Source: Effrenium voratum (taxonomy: Eukaryota; Sar; Dinophyceae; Suessiales; Symbiodiniaceae). Taken from it: a stretch of 64,000 nucleotides of DNA. The position numbers were made by a program, and so were the translations under genes. The stretch is taken from positions 1,146,033-1,210,032 of the forward strand of contig CAUJNA010000458.1 of the NCBI GenBank assembly GCA_963377175.1. Reading direction: 5' to 3'. Positions 21,061 to 45,127 of this stretch are shown here, piece after piece. Numbering within the stretch: position 1 is the stretch's first letter; each line of letters opens with the position of its first letter. A model generated the notes under the pieces. The model made no database searches, was not told the origin of the DNA, and saw only the letters and a list, made by a program, of their open reading frames with translations.

Positions 21061-24000
21061 GATTTGCCACCTGATGATAATGGTGAAGAGCTTGGCTTGG
21101 GTTGGGGATTGGGTCTTGATGAGCATCCAATAACTTTGTTTGATGCAGTTCTACCTGAAAGTGATGACGGAACCGGCGATGAACTGTTTGGGCAAGCTGC
21201 AAGTAGTGCTGATGGGGGCAAAGGCAAGCAGAAGCTCTCCCGACCCAAAGCCAAGCAGAAAGCAAAGCCCAAAGCCAAGGCAGCTTTGGTACCTTCTGGG
21301 AAATCAGAGCCCAAAGCCAAGGTGCTACCTTCTGGGAAAGCAAAGCCCAAAGCCAAGGTGCTACCTTCTGGGAAAGCACAACCCAAAGCCAGGACAGCCC
21401 GCAAACGTGCCCCGGAAAGGAATGATGATGATGAGCTTCCCATCCTGAACTGTGAGGATGACACCTTGAAGAAGGCAGCCAGTGGTATCCCATCAACAGT
21501 CAAGATGCCCCACTCAGATTTGGAAGCTCTCCTGCAGAACCCACCTGGCCTAACTTCCTTGCAGAATGATCCCTGCAATGTGTGGGAGGTCTTCACTATT
21601 CCAAGGCTGGGCCCTGTCATGAGGGAATTGGGAGGCAAGTGCAAGCGCTCCTATGACATCCGCCACTTTTGGGATCTGAATGAGGAAAGCTACCAGCGCA
21701 CACTACTTCAAGACATAGCATTGTTTACACCTTTGTGTGTAATGATGAGTCCTCCTTGTACTTATCTATGCCAATTGATGCATTCCAACTGGAAGCGTAT
21801 GCAGCCGCAGAAACGCCTTATGAACCTGGTGCAAGCCTGTGCCCACATAGACCTGTGCATGTGGATTGCAAAGTTTCAAATTACCCATCGTCACTTCTTT
21901 GCCCTTGAGCACCCAGCTGGATCATTGATTTGGGAAAGGGAGTCTGCAGCCCACCGAAAGTTGAGTAGCATTTATTTTTTCTGCTTTGCTTGCTGGTACT
22001 GTATGTTGGTTAGTTGAGATTGCACAGGACTTGCTACTGACTGAGTTCTTGCCTGCTCAGGTGAAAGCAATCAGCCAATGCCCAGGAGTCTTTAAAGCGG
22101 TTTTTGATCAATGCCAGTTTGGACTTGTTTCTGTGGAGGCAAAGCTTCCCCTTAGAAAGCGCACATGTGTCCTCACCAACTCAAGTGTGCTGCACAAGGT
22201 GCTACACAATAACCTGTGTACAGGGAACCATGAGCATCAAGCAATTCAGGGGTCTGAGGGGGGGCGTAAGCGCAGTGAGGCTGCTGCGGAGTACCCCGAA
22301 CCCCTTGTCCGTTGCCTTTGTGAAAGTTTCTTACAGGAGGGGAAACACTTGAGGTGATACCAGTGCCAGAACAGGAAAAAGAGTCTGCTGCTTTGTTTTG
22401 AGGGGTAATTAGTGTCCTGATCCCACCAAGTTGGAACCATTGATCCCTGTTGCGGTCAATTTGGGGGGTCCAATTCGGCAGATTTCGATTGAAACCCACG
22501 GACAGAGGGATCGTGAGAGGGGTTGCCACTGAAAACCTGCGGAACTCAACCTTGCAATTTTGATGGGTGGGGATCAGCAGATTTCATTTGAAATCTGCAG
22601 AACATCCTATTGACAACCCTGAATCTGCGGATCTTACCCCCCCAACTTTGCTAGGGTGACTTCTGCAGATTGATATAACCCAGAAGGAAGATCTGCAGAA
22701 TTCAATTGAAACCTGCGGATCTAGGGGGTGCAAATGTGCAGGAGTGACTTCTGCAGATTTTGGCTGAAGTGGTCTTAGTGCTGGCTTCAAGTGGTTGAAT
22801 GCTGGTTGGCAATTGGTTTGCAATCTGGTCCCCTGGTCCAGCTGTGAAGTGATACAGGGTTGGTGGTTTGGGTGACTTGCGCCCATGGATGCTGAGCCTG
22901 GCAATGTGGAAGACCCTGCTGAGTTGGGAGAGGCTGGGTTGAATGCAGCAAAATTAAGCTTGATGTCTAGTTACTGACATTATACTTTTGAACAGTTTCC
23001 TTTGCCTGGTAGGTTTTGTTTGTATTTCGTTGCTTCCCACACAATACCAATCCCTTGAGGACCGGGATGCCAAACGCAGCCTGATGTTTGAGACCGCGAT
23101 GGATGATGAGGATGTTGATGCCAAGTCCTTGGCAACGACAGTGGGTGGAGGAGACATGTCCTTGTTGACATCCCCTGGGAGTACTGCTACTGGGGCAACA
23201 TCCATGGAACATGCTTTTCTGGATTCGCAACCGCAGCAGCTTATAGAGGATATCTTGGGGGAGATCAAGCGCTACTTGACACTATTGATTTTTAGTATAG
23301 TAAGCTGGTTTGGGTGTGGAACAGGTTCAAACTAGAATGGGGAGTTGGACCACTTAGGCTATGGTGGTGCTCGCCAATACTTGCATGCTATGTATCCAAC
23401 CCAGAAGATGCGTCAAGAAGCTCTGCCAATGGATTTGAAAACAGCTGTCCCACTTGGTCCTTCTGTGGCCTACACCCTGGACTACCCCTTGCCAGCTTGT
23501 CTCTCAGGTGACTTGATTGATTTGGGAATCCTACTGTTTGTGAGAAAACCTGGTTTGACAAAATCCTCCTTCAAACCTTCAAACATGGGCAGCCTTGACC
23601 ATCTGAAGCCTTCTGGTAATAGAGTTGTGAGCCCACTGGCTGCCTCAGGCCAAGAAGATGACCAACTACCTTTCTCCATTCCACTGCACAAGTTTTCTGT
23701 GGAGAACGAATCCAGCCTTTGGGAGCCAACTGGCCCAGCACTTCAGTGTGGATGGATTTGTCACCACTGGGGAGCCTATCATGATTCGCTTGCAGGCTGA
23801 CAAACTTGTGACCTTACCCCCTATCTTTGTTTTGTGAACTTGAAGTCAATCCTTTGATTTGGTCATGTGATCAATTGAAACTGGGCAGGCGAATGTGCTA
23901 CTCAGCGAAGGAGCTATTGCCGATGGGTCAATTTGGTTGCTCAAAGGGGCTGCAAGGATTCACTCTGCTATGGCTGTAGTGATTGGACTTCTTCGAAAAG

Positions 24001-32190: not shown

Positions 32191-32454
32191 ACGCGCACAC
32201 ACACACACACACTTCCCCACGTCACGCAGTCACTCTGCCAACGTAATGCAATTCGGCGCACCTCACCAAGGTGTTGGCCACAACCAAGGAGCACAATGCT
32301 GTAGTAGACACAGAAAATCAGAGTCCTGCCCAGGACCGATTGCGCCCACTCCTGCATGAACTGGTGCAAGCTGGCTTTAGTCGCTTGCCTACTGCAAGCA
32401 TTGTATTAACAAAAAGGGTAACGAGCCAACAAATTGACTTCACCCAGCCGGGTC

Positions 32455-33265
32455 ATGAACACACACACACACAGAGAAACACTCACACAAACACACACAC
32501 ACACACACACACAAACACACAAACACACAAACACACAAACACACAAACACACAAACACACAAACACACAAACACACAACACACACACACACAAACACACA
32601 AACACACACACACGCACAACACGCGCACACGCACACGCACTCGCGCACGCACACGCACACGCGCACGCGCACGCACACGCACACGCACACGCACACGCAC
32701 ACGCACACGCACACGCACACGCACACACACACACGCGCGCACACGCACACGCGCTCGCGCACGCACACGCACACGCACACGCGCACGCGCACGCACACGC
32801 ACACGCACACGCACACGCACACGCACACGCACACGCACACGCACACGCACACGCACCCGCACGCACACGCACACGCACACGCACACGCACACACACACAC
32901 ACACAAACACACAAACACACAAACACACAAACACACAACACACACACACACAAACACACAAACACACAAACACACAAACACACAACACACACACACAAAC
33001 ACACAACACACACATACACACACGCACACACACGCGCACACGCACACGCACTCGCGCACGCGCACGCACACGCACTCGCGCACGCACACGCACACGCGCA
33101 CGCGCACGCACACGCACACGCACACGCACACGCACACACGCACACGCACACGCACACACGCCCACGCACACGCACACGCACACGCACACGCACACGCACA
33201 CGCACACGCACACGCACACGCACACACACACACACACACACACCGAGAACCACAGCCACTCACAT
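32455..33265. repeat. CA / CACACG / AACACAC microsatellite block
   Basis: About 810 bp made of CA, ACACGC and ACACACAA units in alternating blocks. The order CA-block, AACACAC-block, ACACGC-block repeats at least twice, a higher-order pattern. All six frames are open or nearly so; the His/Thr/Ala and Val/Cys/Arg ORFs are not genes. Alternating purine-pyrimidine throughout. Confidence 0.93.
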
Positions 33266-37185: not shown

Positions 37186-37190
37186 GCAAC
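37186..37190. repeat. Target-site duplication, left copy (GCAAC)
   Basis: GCAAC directly abuts the 3' LTR end and matches 45123-45127. Five bp is the usual length for copia integrases. Confidence 0.9.
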
Positions 37191-37304
37191 TCAAAACACA
37201 ATATCTCGGCTCTGGGGTGCACTGCGGAGCGCACCCTTTTCTTGAGCCAAAACCACACGGAGTGCAATCAGCGCATTGGGCAATTATGACTATACATATC
37301 ATGA
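37191..37304 (-). repeat. 3' LTR (114 bp)
   Basis: Identical to the 5' LTR. Its spliced-leader-like stretch is at 37241-37261 and the hairpin arms at 37215-37220 and 37231-37236. It is preceded (minus sense) by the polypurine tract. Confidence 0.95.
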
Positions 37305-37313
37305 CTCCTCCTT
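37305..37313 (-). promoter_or_regulatory. Polypurine tract
   Basis: AAGGAGGAG on the minus strand, immediately before the 3' LTR. It is the expected plus-strand DNA priming site. Confidence 0.85.
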
Positions 37314-37377
37314 GCTGGAAGAGCGTCTCTGTACACGCTCGCACAGCAATATAGGTAGCGGAGTCTGGCCAGGGACC

Positions 37378-39360
37378 TTAGCCTTCTAGTAGCTTAAGCT
37401 GTCCCTTGCTACGCTGGTTAAGGAAAACATAACCACACCTTCGCATGGTCTCAGACATCTGTACACCTGGAATGCTCTTTGTTAGAGCATCCGCCCTGTT
37501 GGACTTGCCAGGGATATGCTCCACCCTCAGATGGTCCATGCTGACCCTTTCCTGCAACCACAGGAACCTCGTCTGGATGTGACGGGCCTTTCCCAGACCT
37601 GCCCGATTGACAGTTCCTTTCGCTGCAGTCGCATCTGATTGAATCAGCACCTGGGTCTCGACCGCAAAGTCCTCCAAGAGTGACTGTAGGCCTAGACCAA
37701 CTGAACCTCCTTTGACAAGAGCATAATACTCCGACTCCCCAGTCGACAAAGCGATGGTCGACTGCACATTGCTGCTGTGCTTGAGCACATGCAACCCATA
37801 CAGAGCAACCATGCCTGTTGTGGATCTCCTCGTTATTGCGTCTCCGGCATGATCGGAATCCACCTGGATTCGGAGCTTGCTCGGCTTGGCTTGCCGTGCA
37901 AAGACCTGACACACGTCCGGCTTCTTGATGAGGTAGCGACACAGTCGCTTCAAATCCTGCAAAGATGCCTCTGTAGGAGAAACCATCTTCCTCGCAAGAT
38001 TCTTCACAGCGTGGCTGATGTCCAACCTGTCCTGTGACAGGTACGCTGCCCTCATCACGCATGAGCGATACAGGGAAGCCTGCTCTTTCGGTAGAGCTGG
38101 GCTCCGGGCTTCCTGCATCTGCAAATCCACGGACTTCTTCACGTCCGGTGTCTCCGCTCCCTTGGCATTCTCCATGCCAAGCTGCTGCACAAGCAAATCA
38201 ACATGGCGTCGATCTGGCTCGATCAGGATCGCACTCGCTCCTTGATGTTGTTCACAACGAATGAGCCGGTTGAGAAAGTGGACCTCCTTGTGGTCTCCTT
38301 CCTCATCACCTATCGTCCCGAGCCATTTCAACTCGTAGGCACTGCGAAGCAAAGTATCTACTTCCTTCAGCGCCTCGGCGTCTCCTAACGCCATGAAATC
38401 ATCTCCGTGCACCAGCACTCTTATTCCCAGTGTCGGGTGATAGAACACTGAGCCATTTGACTTTCCCCGGAGATATCCGGCTTTGATCAACAGCTGCGTG
38501 TAGTGCTGCTGCCATATGTTAGGGGCATCCTGTGTCCCGTACATCGACTTAGTCAAACGACCCACCATTCCCGGACTGGCGTCCTCGTCCGGCAACTGGA
38601 TGTATATGCGGCGTTTGGGTACGCCATAGAAGTGGGCTCTTGATATATCCCAAAGTCCGATCTTGAGTGGTCGTCCTCCATGGGATACACGCTCAGTGGC
38701 CCATAGGCTACATAGCAGCCTCATAGCCTCTAAAGGCGGTGTTGACGAAAACAGCATGTTCTGAGGAATCCTTTCCTCTGGACTCTTCCGGGCCTTGATC
38801 TCCCGGACCACCAATCTCGACCTGAAGTTGGGATTGGCGGGGTCTCCCTTGTTGGTGTCTATCCAACGGGTGGTGATTGGACCCTTCCCGTTGGTCTCTC
38901 TGAGGCATTCCTCGAGCGGCACCTTCTCGTAAACCTCTTGCTTCCTAAGATAGTCCAACTCGAGCTGACGTGCCTCCCTGACTCGGTCTGGTGGCAAAAA
39001 CCCACCATTCACGTCGTCCCAGTACTGCTCCACGTCTTCCGGCGTCACGAAGCTCTCCTCTGGGATTGGACCTGCAACTGCTGCATCCAATGCACTCAAC
39101 TGGCCACTCTCTACAAGGTGGCTCTTCAAAGTCTTCAGGACCGCTCGCACTAGCGCTGGCGGATAATGGGCCGCCGGTCTAGCGAGTCCTCCGATCAGGT
39201 GGATGTGCCGGTGCCATGGTTTCCCGGCACATTGTTGGTGCATTCGCCCTCCAACAGTTGGGCCAAACCTGGATGGTTGGTCATCCAGCCAGTTTCTTTC
39301 CGCACATATCCTGTGCCCTGCAAACCCCTCCGGTCCGTAGCGACCATAGCCCATCTGCAC
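37378..39360 (-). CDS. Reverse transcriptase-RNase H
   Basis: True coding starts near 39237 (AGKPWHRHIHLIGGLA) and continues the upstream domain in the -1 frame; the first ~45 residues of the open frame are out of frame. Copia RT: SSTPPLEAMRLL, LWDISRAHFYG (D238), SMYGTQDAP, VLVHGDDFMALG (D320-D321). HGDDF replaces the usual YVDD. RNase H: IQVDSDHAGD (D501), LSTGESEYYAL (E542), QSDATAAKG (D576), KARHIQTRFLWLQE and GKSNRADALTKS. Stop at 37378, 64 bases before the polypurine tract. Confidence 0.93.
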   Translation of the reverse strand: MQMGYGRYGPEGFAGHRICAERNWLDDQPSRFGPTVGGRMHQQCAGKPWHRHIHLIGGLARPAAHYPPALVRAVLKTLKSHLVESGQLSALDAAVAGPIPEESFVTPEDVEQYWDDVNGGFLPPDRVREARQLELDYLRKQEVYEKVPLEECLRETNGKGPITTRWIDTNKGDPANPNFRSRLVVREIKARKSPEERIPQNMLFSSTPPLEAMRLLCSLWATERVSHGGRPLKIGLWDISRAHFYGVPKRRIYIQLPDEDASPGMVGRLTKSMYGTQDAPNIWQQHYTQLLIKAGYLRGKSNGSVFYHPTLGIRVLVHGDDFMALGDAEALKEVDTLLRSAYELKWLGTIGDEEGDHKEVHFLNRLIRCEQHQGASAILIEPDRRHVDLLVQQLGMENAKGAETPDVKKSVDLQMQEARSPALPKEQASLYRSCVMRAAYLSQDRLDISHAVKNLARKMVSPTEASLQDLKRLCRYLIKKPDVCQVFARQAKPSKLRIQVDSDHAGDAITRRSTTGMVALYGLHVLKHSSNVQSTIALSTGESEYYALVKGGSVGLGLQSLLEDFAVETQVLIQSDATAAKGTVNRAGLGKARHIQTRFLWLQERVSMDHLRVEHIPGKSNRADALTKSIPGVQMSETMRRCGYVFLNQRSKGQLKLLEG

Positions 39361-41783
39361 ATTGGGCCTCGGACAGTGTACACGTCCGGTCTCTCAGTGA
39401 GCTCACGGACCTCCGGGTCTTTCCAAGAGGTAGCACTCCACGGTGCCTCATGCAAGAAGAACCTACCTGCCTGCAACTGCTTCCTGTAGAACCTACAGGC
39501 GGTATGCAAATGAGCAACTGCTCTATCCATCTTCTCGCGCCTCTTGTCTGGGCTCACCCTGTACTTGTTGATGTTCTGGAGCTGGGAGAATTGGTCACAA
39601 GGTGGGCTCCCTGTGAGCAATGTCGGCTCGACCTCGTCCACATACTCCTCGAGCTCTCGGACGTCCTCAGTCTTGCTGAGATCCCAGTAGGAACCGTCCG
39701 GTTTCTGCTCCTCAAGGTCTACCGCAAAGCCCGGCCTCAAGCCATACTGCCCGGCTTGGGCCGTGAACCGCTTCGGGCTGTAGATCTCCATGATATCAAC
39801 AGCGCCCATCTCCACGCACAGCTTGGTGATCTGCTCCAGCTCGACCGCGTTGATCTCCACCTCCTGAGCCAAAAACGCTCTCTCTACTTTCCGTCCAACC
39901 ATGGACTTCAACATCCTCTTCAATCTACCCAGTTCAAGTCCGCCCACGTCTGGGGGCTTGTCCGGGGTGTTTGAAGTCTCGGCGTCAGCCGCCGGTTGAG
40001 TCTCCGTTCGGAGTTCTTCAGGAGATACTGCGGGCTCTCGCTTCTCACCTTGCTTCTGCTGCGTCTTCTGCTTGGCTCCGGGCGCTATATACAGCGCTCC
40101 CGGTCTCTTGATCTGCGTGGTCGGCTTCGCCTTGCTCTTTGGACTACTCGATGCTGGCGGGCCTGCTGCTGCTCTCTTGAGTTCAGCCCTCTTCGCGGGA
40201 TCCTCCACATACTCCATCACTTGTCCAGGGTCTTGCCTAGATCCTACTCCGGCCTCAGCGGCCGGCTCTCCCATGGCCTCTTGGGCTGGGAGATCTGCTT
40301 CCACTCCTACTTCCGCGGTCTCCTCTCTTTTCCTTTTGTGAGCTTCGACACGGCGTCGTCCTTGCTCATCATCCATCATGAGACCGACGATTCTCGCTCG
40401 GCACATCTCAGTGTGCGGCAACTGAGTGGATTCCCCTAGTAGCACGCAGGTGCATCCAGGACATCCATCAGTAGGTTGGTACTTCTCCACATCTGCCTTA
40501 CGGATGTAAATCCGTCGCTGCTGTGGCGGTGCCATAACAGGCACAACCTGAGGCGGAACCTCAACCCGGTCTTCACTGACCAGCAGGTCCTCCACTCCTT
40601 GAGCAGGAGTTCCCGGGGCCCTCTGCCCCGGCGTTCCCGGCGCTCGCACTGAGACCTCCCACGGGTAGCCTTTAAGGCTTTCCCATCCTTGTGGATTCCA
40701 TTGATCTTCTTCTGGAAGTCGACGAACACCAGTGCCTCTCTTCACTCCTTCTGAGGTCACAACCAGCAAAGTGCCAGTCCTTCCGTGGTGACCTATGTAC
40801 CTGCCTTCCTTGAGTGGCCTAGCTCCTTCTCCTACCTCACGGTAATACAACCGCTCTCCTATGGCGATTGCCGGCTTTCTCCATTCTCGGCCACACCTCC
40901 TTTGTTCCGGTGTCTTCCCGTCGGAACCTCTCTTGTACCTGCACATCAGGTCTGCTGCATGCCTTGGAAACCAAGACAGCACAGGGTCGTCATCCTTCAA
41001 GACTCGACCCAACTTCTCCTCCAGTGAGGATCGCAGGACTCTCACCTGCCTTTTGAGTTCTCGGCACAAGTTCTCGATTGCGCCATTCGCCCGGTGGTCA
41101 GCCACCGGCGACTCCTGTGGAACATTCTCCACTCCTGCTTCCTTGGCCGCCTGCTCCTTCAGGGCAACGATCGAATGCTCACCATCACTCTTGAAGACTG
41201 CACGACGGTAACCAAGATGCTTTATAAAGTTCGCCATGAATTTGACCGCATATGGCGTCGGTCCTTTTGCGTCCACGAAGGTGGCCGCAACGGCCAGTGT
41301 CCGACTGTCTCGGATCACCAGGATAGGCTTAGTCTTCCCATCCTCCTTTCCATCTCGCGTCATCCATGTGTAGTCGCACGAGATTGTCGCGAGCTCATCG
41401 CTCGCCTTGTCCTCTTCGGGTCGTGAGCGATGCTGCTGACCCAATCCTCTGCCGGCAAGACAATGCCGACACCAGTTGCGATACTGCACGTGACCTGTTG
41501 CCTCATGCACCGCAACCTCGGCCCTCGATGGGCCTCCTGGTGCTCTCACCAGTGCGGGCGGCGCGATCTCGCCGCTCTCATCCATCTCATCACCCTCGGG
41601 CACACCTGCGGGTCGGCCCGCCGGTGCCTCTGGGTTCCCTTGTCCGGCACCCACGGCATCATCTGCCGCTGCAAGTGGTTTGGCCGGACTTACGCCTCGC
41701 TGGACTGCCGTCCAAAACCCGAACAATCTTCCGACTTCAAATAGAAGTTGTAAACTCCTTTCTCTTGGTATATGGGCAACCAA
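39195..41783 (-). CDS. Integrase plus methyltransferase-like domain
   Basis: Read from the frameshift near 41717. Numbering is from the open frame at 41783. A zinc-type H93/H98/C105/C108 motif (HEATGH, CRHC) precedes the integrase core with D137 (CDYTWM), D200 (KSDGE) and E237 (NGAIENL), a D-D-36-E spacing. A long linker follows. At about 645-800 is a domain with DIMEIYSPKRFTAQAG, AVDLEE, TGSPPCDQFSQLQN (SPPC at 726-729) and FFLHEAPWS (E at 779). These positions resemble motifs I, II, IV and VI of cytosine-C5 methyltransferases, but this is by eye only. The frame ends in the conserved GYVRKETGWMTN...ECTNN stretch because of a one-base lesion; the natural continuation is in the next ORF. Confidence 0.9.
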   Translation of the reverse strand: MVAHIPRERSLQLLFEVGRLFGFWTAVQRGVSPAKPLAAADDAVGAGQGNPEAPAGRPAGVPEGDEMDESGEIAPPALVRAPGGPSRAEVAVHEATGHVQYRNWCRHCLAGRGLGQQHRSRPEEDKASDELATISCDYTWMTRDGKEDGKTKPILVIRDSRTLAVAATFVDAKGPTPYAVKFMANFIKHLGYRRAVFKSDGEHSIVALKEQAAKEAGVENVPQESPVADHRANGAIENLCRELKRQVRVLRSSLEEKLGRVLKDDDPVLSWFPRHAADLMCRYKRGSDGKTPEQRRCGREWRKPAIAIGERLYYREVGEGARPLKEGRYIGHHGRTGTLLVVTSEGVKRGTGVRRLPEEDQWNPQGWESLKGYPWEVSVRAPGTPGQRAPGTPAQGVEDLLVSEDRVEVPPQVVPVMAPPQQRRIYIRKADVEKYQPTDGCPGCTCVLLGESTQLPHTEMCRARIVGLMMDDEQGRRRVEAHKRKREETAEVGVEADLPAQEAMGEPAAEAGVGSRQDPGQVMEYVEDPAKRAELKRAAAGPPASSSPKSKAKPTTQIKRPGALYIAPGAKQKTQQKQGEKREPAVSPEELRTETQPAADAETSNTPDKPPDVGGLELGRLKRMLKSMVGRKVERAFLAQEVEINAVELEQITKLCVEMGAVDIMEIYSPKRFTAQAGQYGLRPGFAVDLEEQKPDGSYWDLSKTEDVRELEEYVDEVEPTLLTGSPPCDQFSQLQNINKYRVSPDKRREKMDRAVAHLHTACRFYRKQLQAGRFFLHEAPWSATSWKDPEVRELTERPDVYTVRGPMCRWAMVATDRRGLQGTGYVRKETGWMTNHPGLAQLLEGECTNNVPGNHGTGTST

Positions 41784-43396
41784 GTCTTCTTTTGGGCTTT
41801 ACTGGGCTTGTTGAGCAACTGCTGAATTTTCCTTCCTGTCGCTGAGTCTGCTGGAATCAACTGTCCACCATTTTGATCAAGAACAGCCATCCTTCCATGG
41901 TTGAGGCATTTGTAAGCTGAAACCAACGGTTTGTGTACCGGTGCTAATGGCCCTGTGACTTTACACCTGGAACCTGTTTCACTCTTACCTTGAAACGTCC
42001 CGGTTCCGGTCCCAGGGACCAGTTCCCCCGATGCTGTCTTGAACATCATCTGGGCTCCTTCCTTAGTGGGGATGCGGTCTTTCCAATCCACTGGAATAGC
42101 AGTTTGAGCAGCCCCCGTATCAAGGTTGAACCGAACCCAGTTTGGGTCTTTCGGGGACTCTCCCTGGGTGAATGCACCCAGCTCAAACATTCCCACTTCG
42201 GCCTCCGGTTGTTCTTCTTGGTCTCCAGCTTCGTAGTCGGCGTCCTCGAATCCTGCCACATGCTTCTGCTTGGAGCCAGACTTCCCTGAGCCTTTGGAAC
42301 CTTTTCCATCCTTCTTCTTGCTCCAACACTCGGCCGCTCTATGGCCGGTCTTACCACAGTTGAAGCATGCTCCTGCGGACCCTGAGCTGCCTGAACCACT
42401 GCCTTTACCTTTTCCCTTGCTGTCCTTACCTTTTCCTTTGCCTTTGCCTCCACCTTTGTCCTTTCCCTTGCCTTTGCCTCCTTTCGAACCTTTCGAGCCT
42501 TTGACCAGCGAGTTGAGCACCTTCGTGATGGCGTCCACGTCCATCGGAGCGGGGCCTTGCCCCGATCTCGAAGCCCCACTGGACCCCGGTCGATGGATCG
42601 TCCCCTTTGCTCCCGTGACTGTTTCAATCAGAACCTCAATCTCCTGTTTCATTTCCTCATAGGTTCCCAGCCGGTTCTTGTTCAGAATGAGGTGGCGCTC
42701 AATGTCGGTTGGAACCAGAAGTTCTAGGGACGTACACTTTATGTCCTGAGAGAGGATTTCCCTCTCGCCCCTTTCGTTCCTTCTGGCCTCATATCGGCGC
42801 ATCAAATCATCTAGTTGTTCCATGGCCGGTCGAACTGCTTCCCAAGACTTAACTCTTTCGGGGTTGAGGATGGCCCTTAGGATGTTCCTCTTCCTACCTG
42901 CGGTGAGGGGGTCCCATCTCCTGTTAAGCCTTCGCCATGCCTCATACCCGTTCTTGGCATTGATGACCAGATCTTCGGACTCATGAGTAGTAAGGGATGA
43001 CAACAACCTATACAGTTGGTCTCCCTTATCATCCAGTCCGGCCATTCCCAGTTCGCCTCCATGTTCCTCTTCTACCTTTTCAACAGTGATCTCCTCATCC
43101 TGATCAACTACCCATTCAAGGATTGACTGGAAACTGGATCCAAAGATTGCCGTTGTGAGGTTCACCACAGACCGGGCCCATCTACGGAAGTGGCCGTCAT
43201 CATTGGAAAAGACTTCCGGTCTTCCAATCCCTTTGGTGTCTATCAACAACTTCCTATCGCCTTTCTGCAGGCTTGTAGCTAACCTACCAAGGTTCTCTGC
43301 CAAAGCAGCTATACCTGCCTGGCCTTGCCTAAGAAGTTGATTCTCCTGTGACAACCGCTCAACTGCCTGCTGCAACTCTCGCACTGTTTCCTCCAT
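41690..43396 (-). CDS. Gag-protease
   Basis: 568 residues from ATG 43396 (MEETVRELQQAVERLSQENQ, a coiled-coil start). Residues about 50-260 are the capsid-like gag region (YEAWRRLNRRW, RRYEARRNERGER). A Gly/Lys-rich linker follows, then a zinc knuckle CFNCGKTGHRAAEC (344-357, CX2CX4HX4C). A retroviral aspartic protease follows, with FNLDTGAAQTAIP (DTG at 426-428). The TAA at 41690 comes eight codons after a -1 slippery heptamer, so downstream pol may be made by frameshifting. Confidence 0.93.
   Translation of the reverse strand: MEETVRELQQAVERLSQENQLLRQGQAGIAALAENLGRLATSLQKGDRKLLIDTKGIGRPEVFSNDDGHFRRWARSVVNLTTAIFGSSFQSILEWVVDQDEEITVEKVEEEHGGELGMAGLDDKGDQLYRLLSSLTTHESEDLVINAKNGYEAWRRLNRRWDPLTAGRKRNILRAILNPERVKSWEAVRPAMEQLDDLMRRYEARRNERGEREILSQDIKCTSLELLVPTDIERHLILNKNRLGTYEEMKQEIEVLIETVTGAKGTIHRPGSSGASRSGQGPAPMDVDAITKVLNSLVKGSKGSKGGKGKGKDKGGGKGKGKGKDSKGKGKGSGSGSSGSAGACFNCGKTGHRAAECWSKKKDGKGSKGSGKSGSKQKHVAGFEDADYEAGDQEEQPEAEVGMFELGAFTQGESPKDPNWVRFNLDTGAAQTAIPVDWKDRIPTKEGAQMMFKTASGELVPGTGTGTFQGKSETGSRCKVTGPLAPVHKPLVSAYKCLNHGRMAVLDQNGGQLIPADSATGRKIQQLLNKPSKAQKKTWLPIYQEKGVYNFYLKSEDCSGFGRQSSEA
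41714..41720 (-). promoter_or_regulatory. Candidate -1 ribosomal frameshift heptamer
   Basis: Minus-strand G GGT TTT in the gag-pro frame is a canonical X XXY YYZ heptamer. A -1 shift here gives GGG TTT TGG ACG, which is the integrase frame. The integrase ORF has no ATG near its 5' end (it opens on TTG), consistent with expression by fusion. A small hairpin (GGAC/GTCC) starts one base after the heptamer; a stronger structure was not worked out. Confidence 0.55.
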
Positions 43397-43426
43397 GCCT
43401 TATATCCGGTGCCAAGCACCGGGAGG

Positions 43427-45009
43427 TCAGTCCGCCTTCCCGGACTCTTCTGTACTATAGTACGACCCCGAGCTCGATCCGCTTTTCGGCTCCGGCGCCG
43501 GTTGATCGTGAAGGTGCACACTGCCCTCGGTCTCGCTCAGGGGTGTGGCCGGCGACGGAGTCGGTGGCGGAGGTGGCGGCCGCTTCGGCGGGTGCTTCGG
43601 CCGAGCCAGCGAAACCTTCGGCTCGCTCTTGGGCTTCTCGATGTGGGCCTTCTCCTTGAGCACCCGCTTCGGCTTTGGCGGTGGAGGTGGTACCCTTGCC
43701 TCTACAGCCGCTTTTGCAGGAGGTGGCTTCACCTGAGGCTTCGCGATGGCTTCCGGTACCGACTTTGAGGTCGTTCCTACCGGTGCGCGCCTCCTTGCCG
43801 CCCCTTTTGCAATTGCTGCGGCCCTGGCCAACAATGATGGCCTCTGAAGGCGAGTCCTCTCGTCGCACGAGGAGCACGGGTTCCCCAACCCGTCCAGTTG
43901 CAGCACACTCTGCTGGATGGCTCTGGCCACCGAGCCCGTTGCTCCGGCTCGGTATGCAGCTTCTGCCGATGCCGCCTTCCTGAGGCGGTAGTTCGAGGCC
44001 AGGTTCTGCTCGCTCGTCCCTTCACCGCGGGATGTCCTTGCCACCGCAAGCTCTTGTATGTTCCTGTGCACCGTAACCCGTCGGCCGAGAGCTTTGGCTG
44101 CCTCGGCGACCGGTGCCAGCAGCTCGGGCTCAGCGCCCGGTGAAGGCTCCTTTCCTTGGGCCTTTGTGAATCCCTTCGGCGGTGTCTTCGGAGCAGGGCT
44201 GGACTTAGGCGGGGACTTCGGTGGTGTCTTGGGCTGCACCCGGCGCCTCTTCCAGGGCGCCTGCCCGAAGTTCTCGATCTCCTCCTGGAGCTCCGCGGAT
44301 GGCTCTTCCTGCTTCTTCTGCGCGAGCTTCAGGAGGCCTTTGAGGATCCTAAAGTGCCGACTGTTTTGGCTTCTCCTCTTGTCTTTGCCAGTCGCACTCT
44401 GCCACCACCGAGATCCTGACGACCTAGGCGTGTGAGCGACCTTGGGCTCGGGCTCAGGCTGGATCCTGCCCTGGCTGCCCCAATCGCCCCACACGCTCTC
44501 GTCCTCGCTCTTCTGCTCCAGGTCGAAGTCCGTGGCCTCGGGCTCAAACTGCTTCTTCTGCGGCGGGTGGAGGTCCTCCTTCTTGTCCTCGTTGGTGTAT
44601 TGTTCCAGCTCCTCCTCCTTCTCCTCTGCCCGGCTTCCTCGAGCCGGTTCTGGGCCCCTGTGGCCACTTGGCAGAGCCTCTGGCGAGGAGATGCAGCCTG
44701 GGATCCTCCCCAGTCTGCTTCTGACTCAGCGGCAGGCTCAGCGGACAGGGTCTCTTCCTCTTCTTCACTCGGAGGGGCAACTAGTTCCGGCCTCTCCTCC
44801 GGCAGCTCTTCCGCTGCCCCGGTCTCCTCGACCGGCTCTGCGGCTTTGCCTTTGCCGCGAGCGGGCCGCCTCCACGGCGGCTCCTCCTTGTTGCTCTTGC
44901 CCCTGCCCTTCTTGCCCTTGCTCTTGCCCTTCTTGCCCCTGTTCTTGCCCTTGGGCCCCTCGTACGGCTTTCCAAACCAAATGGACCGTCGAGGCTCACC
45001 CGCTACCAT
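43427..45009 (-). CDS. Extra 5' ORF of the retrotransposon (ORF0), frame broken
   Basis: The ATG uses the last LTR base and the first two primer-site bases (45009-45007): MVAGEPRRSIWFGKPYEG, then a Lys/Gly-rich stretch, an acidic stretch and TGAQNRLEEA. At about 44625 the coding texture moves to the -1 frame (EEKEEELEQYTNEDKKED) and runs to a TGA at 43427: first a Pro/Lys-rich segment, then a helical part (SNYRLRKAASAEAAYR, CSSCDERTRLQRPSLLARA), then Pro-rich. It ends 31 bases before gag, in the same frame as gag but separated by stops. No domain recognised; basic and Pro-rich, so possibly nucleic-acid binding or capsid-associated. Without the frame break it would be about 525 residues. Confidence 0.6.
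44995..45008 (-). promoter_or_regulatory. Primer binding site, initiator tRNA-Met type
   Basis: TGGTAGCGGGTGAG begins on the base after the 5' LTR. TGGTAGCG is complementary to the CGCUACCA end of eukaryotic initiator tRNA-Met, the usual primer of copia/Ty1 elements. Confidence 0.85.
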
Positions 45010-45122
45010 CAAAACACAATATCTCGGCTCTGGGGTGCACTGCGGAGCGCACCCTTTTCTTGAGCCAAAACCACACGGAGTGCAATCAGCGCATTGGGCA
45101 ATTATGACTATACATATCATGA
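45009..45122 (-). repeat. 5' LTR (114 bp) with spliced-leader-like sequence
   Basis: It reads TCATGATATG... to ...GTGTTTTGA on the minus strand and is identical to the 3' LTR. Ends are fixed by the adjacent primer site and target duplication. The termini are TC...GA rather than the usual TG...CA. Inside it (45059-45079) is TCCGT-GTGG-TTTTGGCTCAAG, which matches the dinoflagellate spliced leader except in the middle. A 6-bp stem (GGGTGC/GCACCC) follows it. Confidence 0.95.
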
Positions 45123-45127
45123 GCAAC
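45123..45127. repeat. Target-site duplication, right copy (GCAAC)
   Basis: GCAAC directly abuts the outer end of the 5' LTR. Confidence 0.9.

Follow-up and report, generated by a model that had tools for sequence, protein, structure and literature searches.

Why the long terminal repeats (LTRs) of a retrotransposon should hold part of the spliced leader (SL) of its dinoflagellate host is the question raised by a 7932-bp element in the window, by which the whole 64,000-nt stretch of Effrenium voratum DNA under analysis is meant. The element, an LTR retrotransposon of the Copia type, occupies positions 37191-45122 on the minus strand. Its 5' LTR (45009-45122) and 3' LTR (37191-37304), both read on the minus strand, are 114 nt long and identical, and the 5-bp target site duplication GCAAC flanks them on their outer sides (45123-45127 and 37186-37190, respectively). 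The primer binding site TGGTAGCGGG (44999-45008, minus strand) follows directly after the 5' LTR, and the polypurine tract AGCAAGGAGGAG (37305-37316, minus strand) precedes the 3' LTR. The primer tRNA is putatively the initiator Met tRNA, an assignment made from general tRNA features; Rfam and tRNA scans of the window gave no match. The termini TG...CA are absent from the LTRs of the window type, which show TCA...TGA instead, in our view a minor deviation since the duplications fix the LTR ends; TG...CA termini are apparent by eye in some other LTR types. At LTR positions 107-108, TG is found in both window LTRs as against CA in 26 of 28 other LTRs of the family, and two LTRs on contig C1125 read TA.

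All coding frames discussed here lie on the minus strand. The first (44329-45009) starts at an ATG on the LTR junction and runs for 226 aa in the window copy. The stretch 41690-43396 encodes a gag zinc knuckle of the CCHC type (PF00098, E 4.8e-05), in a frame upstream of that of the reverse transcriptase, together with a weak protease match below the cut-off (PF13650, E 0.018). The Copia reverse transcriptase itself is encoded by the 3'-most frame (37378-39360), where PF07727 (RVT_2) was matched with an E value of 7.8e-13 and a score of 49 bits against a cut-off of 31.6. Its relatives numbered 146 at E <= 0.001, 120 of them among the matches listed, and a search of viral contigs with the same protein gave no relative. 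Upstream of the reverse transcriptase, the frame at 39195-41783 is integrase-like, with HHCC- and D-D-E-like residues seen by eye only; it had no credible match in Pfam and none in NCBIfam or PDB. Towards its C-terminal end, past the integrase-like residues and ahead of the reverse transcriptase, this frame reads TGSPPCDQFS and later HEAPW, a stretch reminiscent of the core of C5 DNA methyltransferases; no methylase match in Pfam was obtained for the frame even at E 1. Symbiodinium Copia elements are stated, in excerpts of one report, to be without a DNMT domain (PMC5890265). Elsewhere in the window, a decayed second Copia reverse transcriptase fragment, split over two frames, lies on the plus strand at 21469-22354, and no LTR was found for this old piece at 21.5-22.3 kb. 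A long low-complexity array of the CA/ACGCAC type occupies 32423-33180 and beyond.

The window's own family is young, and its copies say little about constraint. In the LTR search 40 of 104 candidates were scored, the window included, all with 98-100% identity, and the 30 loci that were cut out and read represent three close variants. Fourteen paired copies (28 of the 30 loci, the window included) have identical LTRs in every case and an exact 5-bp duplication in 13, and the leader-derived block described below stands in both LTRs of all 14. In five more stretches, long segments are 93.9-98.6% identical to the window element.

The leader-like sequence TCCGTGTGGTTTTGGCTCAAG, which is TCCGTGTGG followed by TTTTGGCTCAAG, occupies LTR positions 44-64 in each window LTR, and is thus present in both repeats where the first-pass annotation had placed it (45079-45059 and 37261-37241, minus strand). 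Its second part, TTTTGGCTCAAG, is identical to the last 12 nt of the dinoflagellate spliced leader (DinoSL) and is referred to here as the SL block (45059-45070 in the 5' LTR and 37241-37252 in the 3' LTR, both minus strand). The first part, TCCGTGTGG, lies just upstream (45071-45079, minus strand) and comprises what had been described as the 5' block and the middle of a leader. When TCCGTGTGGTTTTGGCTCAAG is aligned with DinoSL, 5 and 12 bases are exact and the middle differs. The shuffling that had been proposed as a measure of chance expectation was carried out, and 34 of 100,000 LTR shuffles reached the observed alignment score (120 of 100,000 with cheaper gaps). Because this rate alone is modest and the find was made post hoc, relatives of the element were examined. 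Within the window, the exact 12-mer occurs only at the two LTR sites, and 12 matches are found when up to two mismatches are allowed, for a shuffle mean of 11.33. The block ends exactly at the 3' end of the SL, and no GT donor follows it.

The genome searched was the 1.156-Gb assembly. In it, CCGTAGCCATTTTGGCTCAAG has 251 exact copies (0 for the pattern read backwards), and among the matches listed many lie about 136 bp apart on contig C722. The SL gene copies read in two stretches of this contig (L052 and L053) have CAAG|GT in 13 of 13 cases, and the LTRs read are without GT there; the C722 array therefore consists of SL RNA genes, and the host is accordingly a dinoflagellate with the canonical leader. 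An upstream stretch, GCGCACTGGGGCTACCTCTTGCTGGAGCTAGATGTCA, is common to several copies of this array, whose unit measures about 136 bp. The full SL exon and following GT donor of an SL RNA gene are not found at the LTR block, and the idea that the LTR is a copied SL RNA gene was rejected on the absence of GT after the block and a weak likeness in U3. Two other SL-bearing places were observed in the assembly: near base 1500 of L004 there is a tandem relict leader, a full SL followed by a second SL from CCA, as described for retrogenes, and L005 and L006, similar units separated by 642 bp on contig C13, each contain an exact SL.

Conservation of the block was assessed between LTR types, and it is on this comparison that the claim rests. 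The junction patterns fix parts of one LTR layout in one genome, and the resulting sets overlap and are not independent samples; shared descent therefore explains part of the conservation. The SL block followed by TGGTAGCGGG at 35-65 nt gave 87 matches (control 0). By using TTTTSATGGTAGCGGG, in which the block is not named, 91 junctions were obtained (control 0), including all 87 block-selected ones, and in 88 of them the SL's final 12 nt stand unaltered upstream, namely in these 87 and in L111, where the exact block lies at a shorter distance. The three that are not exact are C3118 (L112), with one base changed, and C91 (L058) and C3335 (L113), with deletions. The pattern GCTCCGNAGN{15,45}SATGGTAGC gave 113 matches (control 0), and among those listed there were more LTR types and a few sites unlike LTR ends. 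Twenty junctions were read from the sets of 91 and 113, picked mainly as new or as lacking an exact block; the block was exact in 15, altered in L101, L104 and L112, and partly lost in L108 and L113.

A set selected on the U3 motif CCCAATRCGC was obtained with CCCAATRCGCN{66,96}ATGGTAGC, in which the block is again not named, and comprised 93 matches (control 0), 87 of them with the exact block. The six others are C91 (deletion), C167 (an extra A), C1336 and C3118 (one base each), C3406 (a missing T) and C3639 (two bases). The most divergent of the 93 is C3639:110052-110157, whose block reads TTTGGGTTCAAG and whose hairpin region differs; the genome has this block variant at a single place, so that no second LTR with the same letters is present in the assembly, and the other LTR of the element was not found. 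Among the 87 exact rows, the U3 motif is joined to the block by 22 different linkers, 8-50 nt long, the window's linker being common to 41 rows. Immediately ahead of the block stands G in 74 rows, A in 7, T in 4 and C in 2, and this base is variable even inside single LTR types (T or C in place of G, or an extra T). The two bases after the block read AA, GA, TA, GC or AT. With linkers and following bases so varied, the conserved stretch is TTTTGGCTCAAG, coextensive with the SL match, and LTR types that share it differ in linker and U5.

The full 21-nt sequence, by contrast with the 12-mer, was found in only 17 of the 50 junctions whose U3 was read as well, and each of the 17 belongs to the window's LTR type or a near variant of it. 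The claim that relatives retain the leader thus holds for the 12-mer, exact in 87 of 93 junctions, and not for the whole. A full leader with an altered middle was rejected, as CCGT, and with it TCCGT, is missing from the other LTR types read, whose linkers are unrelated; TCCGT, which had been counted as part of the leader, is probably a chance likeness because it was seen in no LTRs but those of the window's type and its near variants. The first-pass annotation had named as a refutation that related elements have nothing leader-like at this place; such elements were looked for within one genome and one LTR layout, and the outcome favours the 12-mer. What stands of the proposed capture is therefore its 3' part, fixed and kept by related LTR types, and it is well supported that these LTRs hold a captured fragment equal to the last 12 nt of the host SL. 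A looser pattern (the block, then ATGGTAGC at 30-60 nt) gave 15 matches in 257 Gb of prokaryote contigs, near the roughly 14 calculated by chance with equal base use, and 2 matches in viral contigs; no Copia reverse transcriptase was matched in these 17 loci.

On either side of the block, further features are shared. The U3 motif, CCCAATGCGC in the window (45089-45098, minus strand), is common to LTR types, and of 50 junctions that were read irrespective of this motif, 45 have CCCAATRCGC. Downstream, the last base of the LTR and the first two of the primer binding site form an ATG (A|TG; 45007-45009, minus strand), which opens MVAGEPRRSIWF...; its A is LTR position 114, so that the start codon of the first frame lies 50 bases past the leader end, as had been annotated. 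The junction ATG starts MVAG in 30 of 30 loci read, with RSIW or RSMW soon after. In 12 of them the frame has no stop for more than 503 codons; in the window copy it ends after 226. Block start and ATG are 48-67 nt apart in those 29 of the 30 loci whose block is exact, and linker length is more variable than this distance.

That the 12 nt are kept by diverged related elements suggests that the leader plays a part in the making or copying of the RNA of such elements. An LTR retrotransposon depends on identical sequence at the two ends of its RNA, and SL trans-splicing exchanges one of them, the 5' end; if the element's own RNA is trans-spliced, the 3' LTR must therefore hold matching SL sequence. 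Our main reading, drawn from sequence comparison and given a probability of roughly 0.4, is that the 5' end of the element RNA would be SL-derived and that the LTR copy would restore the end redundancy needed for reverse transcription. In the simplest history, an ancestral element RNA would have gained the host SL by trans-splicing and then been reverse transcribed, leaving the SL end in the LTR. The block would be the start of R, and the variable base at its 5' edge fits a U3/R border. Most likely, read-through or LTR-started RNA would be trans-spliced at CAAG|, and the matching SL in the 3' LTR would serve the first-strand transfer of minus strong-stop DNA; were this transfer to take place before the first 10 nt of the leader are copied, only 12 nt would be kept and no full SL would be seen. 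The leader may also serve in translation from the junction ATG, which it precedes by a short 5' UTR. A more detailed version, put forward only tentatively, has trans-splicing at CAAG setting the start of the genomic RNA, the LTR carrying the 3' half of the SL so that both RNA ends match, and the R border being recopied from host SL RNA in each cycle.

The block ends in AG, like an acceptor, and is without the donor of the SL gene. The single occurrence of the C3639 block variant, the one variant for which this was examined, also counts in favour of an SL-derived end. Truncated DinoSL motifs of 13 nt have been reported on Amoebophrya transcripts, according to excerpts of that work (PMC7789003), and offer a possible parallel for loss of the leader at about the same point. 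Counting against an SL-derived end, CCATTTTGGCTCAAG followed by the R hairpin, that is, an SL longer than 12 nt, has 0 matches in the genome, and CCA stands at the linker end before the exact block in 0 of 22 linkers. The shared motif CCCAATRCGC, moreover, looks like the element's own promoter and speaks for RNA started in the LTR. It is possible, if doubtful, that transcription starts at the block and the RNA begins with the 3' half of the SL without trans-splicing, mimicking the 5' end of host mRNAs for translation, export or escape from silencing. This would be consistent with the shared motif upstream, with the absence of a longer SL joined to the hairpin, and with the variation, typical of start sites, in the base that borders the block on its 5' side (74 of 87 have G). 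A precedent is the assembly of a dinoflagellate RNA virus with a 5' dinoSL, for which mimicry was speculated in the excerpts available (PMC10235124). The distance from motif to block, however, ranges from 8 to 50 nt, which is odd for a fixed start site, and there is no evident reason why 12 nt would suffice for mimicry. An unlikely explanation, in which the likeness to the leader has no role in RNA, is that an SL fragment gave the LTR a dinoflagellate promoter element of the TTTT(G) type. Song and others proposed a promoter function, exerted by TTT(G), for retroposed DinoSLs, and excerpts of their article also state that relicts 50-100 nt before the start codon are better conserved (Song et al., 2018; PMC6050394), to be compared with the 48-67 nt in 29 loci here. 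This explanation would require just TTT(G), yet all 12 bases are kept to the exact end of the SL, in 87 of 93 junctions.

The block could also be kept because its GGCTC pairs in the RNA with a downstream GAGCC around a hairpin, although this is improbable. The R/U5 hairpin, GGGTGCGCT-CCGC-AGTGCACCC (45033-45054, minus strand), lies between block and LTR end, and in the window LTR the sequence from the block to that end folds with a z of -3.89, GGCTC pairing with GAGCC beyond the hairpin. Such pairing was found in 3 of 6 LTR types folded, part of the constraint on the block may therefore be structural, and a second type gives a z of -2.52; the third reaches only -1.64, and the three types with shorter LTRs fold without pairing of the block (0.41, -0.54 and -0.99) and still keep it. 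In an alignment of 12 variants (A1), 93.9% of cells are paired where the partner has letters, which 0 of 500 shuffles reach, and the covariation score of the hairpin exceeds that of all 500. These 12 sequences were hand-picked, partly from the block-selected set, so the invariant block columns prove nothing. Two hairpin pairs are changed on both sides, which is unexceptional (377 of 500 shuffles reach 2), and the variation of the outer pair, G-C to G-U at columns 5 and 48, is a change on the partner side. Least probable is that the likeness arose by chance, or that part of an SL RNA gene was copied into the LTR at the DNA level. The post hoc nature of the find and the LTR shuffle rate of 34 in 100,000, taken alone, would allow it, and the U3 of the window type shares CAGCGCAYTGGG, reversed, with the region upstream of the SL gene. 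Against chance, the 12-mer conserved in junctions found without it is the last 12 nt of the SL, for which our own arithmetic gives about 6e-8 for a random 12-mer; against a DNA copy, there is no GT donor after the block, and the U3 likeness is weak, being reached by 157 of 3000 shuffles in the window type and 584 of 3000 in another.

When compared with known systems, the element agrees with dinoflagellate Ty1/Copia elements in RVT_2, CCHC gag, the LTR pair, the 5-bp duplication and the primer site after the LTR, and differs from them, so far as the excerpts of their descriptions go, in that its LTR contains a conserved fragment of the host SL. The relict DinoSLs of retroposed host genes are alike in that a host SL enters genomic DNA by reverse transcription, with no GT donor after CAAG, and the LTR block likewise presents 12 exact bases of the exon without a GT donor at the genomic site. 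Relicts, however, stand at the 5' end of host genes, whereas the 12 nt here form part of LTRs, and different LTR types retain them. They have been reported as starting with CCA in transcripts and containing CCGTAG in genomes, according to excerpts (PMC6616646), and the minimum of CCATTTTGGCTCAAG retained in reported relicts is not retained in the LTRs. The dinoflagellate RNA virus is likewise a selfish RNA with a host leader and a speculated mimicry, but it is a positive-strand ssRNA virus transcript with the leader at the RNA 5' end, as excerpts describe it (PMC10235124); here the leader is encoded in a terminal repeat. Cer1 of C. elegans (Gypsy/Ty3) is also an LTR element in a trans-splicing host. 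In the available excerpts, its spliced 2.4-kb mRNA is found with and without SL1, its 8-kb RNA shows no trans-splicing at the SL1 acceptor site, and what is described is this acceptor site in Cer1, not SL sequence in the LTR (PMC3315495). No mention of an SL fragment in LTRs was found in the full-text literature searched, mostly non-subscription and represented by excerpts, including PMC3229502, PMC3942190, PMC7789003, PMC11453091, PMC12014239, PMC10235124, PMC6050394, PMC6616646, PMC5890265, PMC3315495 and PMC4558846. In the related Perkinsozoa the SLs reportedly vary (PMC9399869), and for the dinoflagellate Oxyrrhis marina a transformation vector has been reported (PMC7022241).

For the biology of dinoflagellates, the SL block makes testable the question of what lets Copia elements prosper where the host adds one leader to its mRNAs, and it provides a simple genomic tag for such LTRs. 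If the tentative version in which trans-splicing at CAAG sets the start of the genomic RNA is true, copying from host SL RNA in each cycle would keep the block identical to the host leader in every LTR type. Through the block, retrotransposon replication may be linked to the SL-tagged retrogenes that are common in dinoflagellate genomes.
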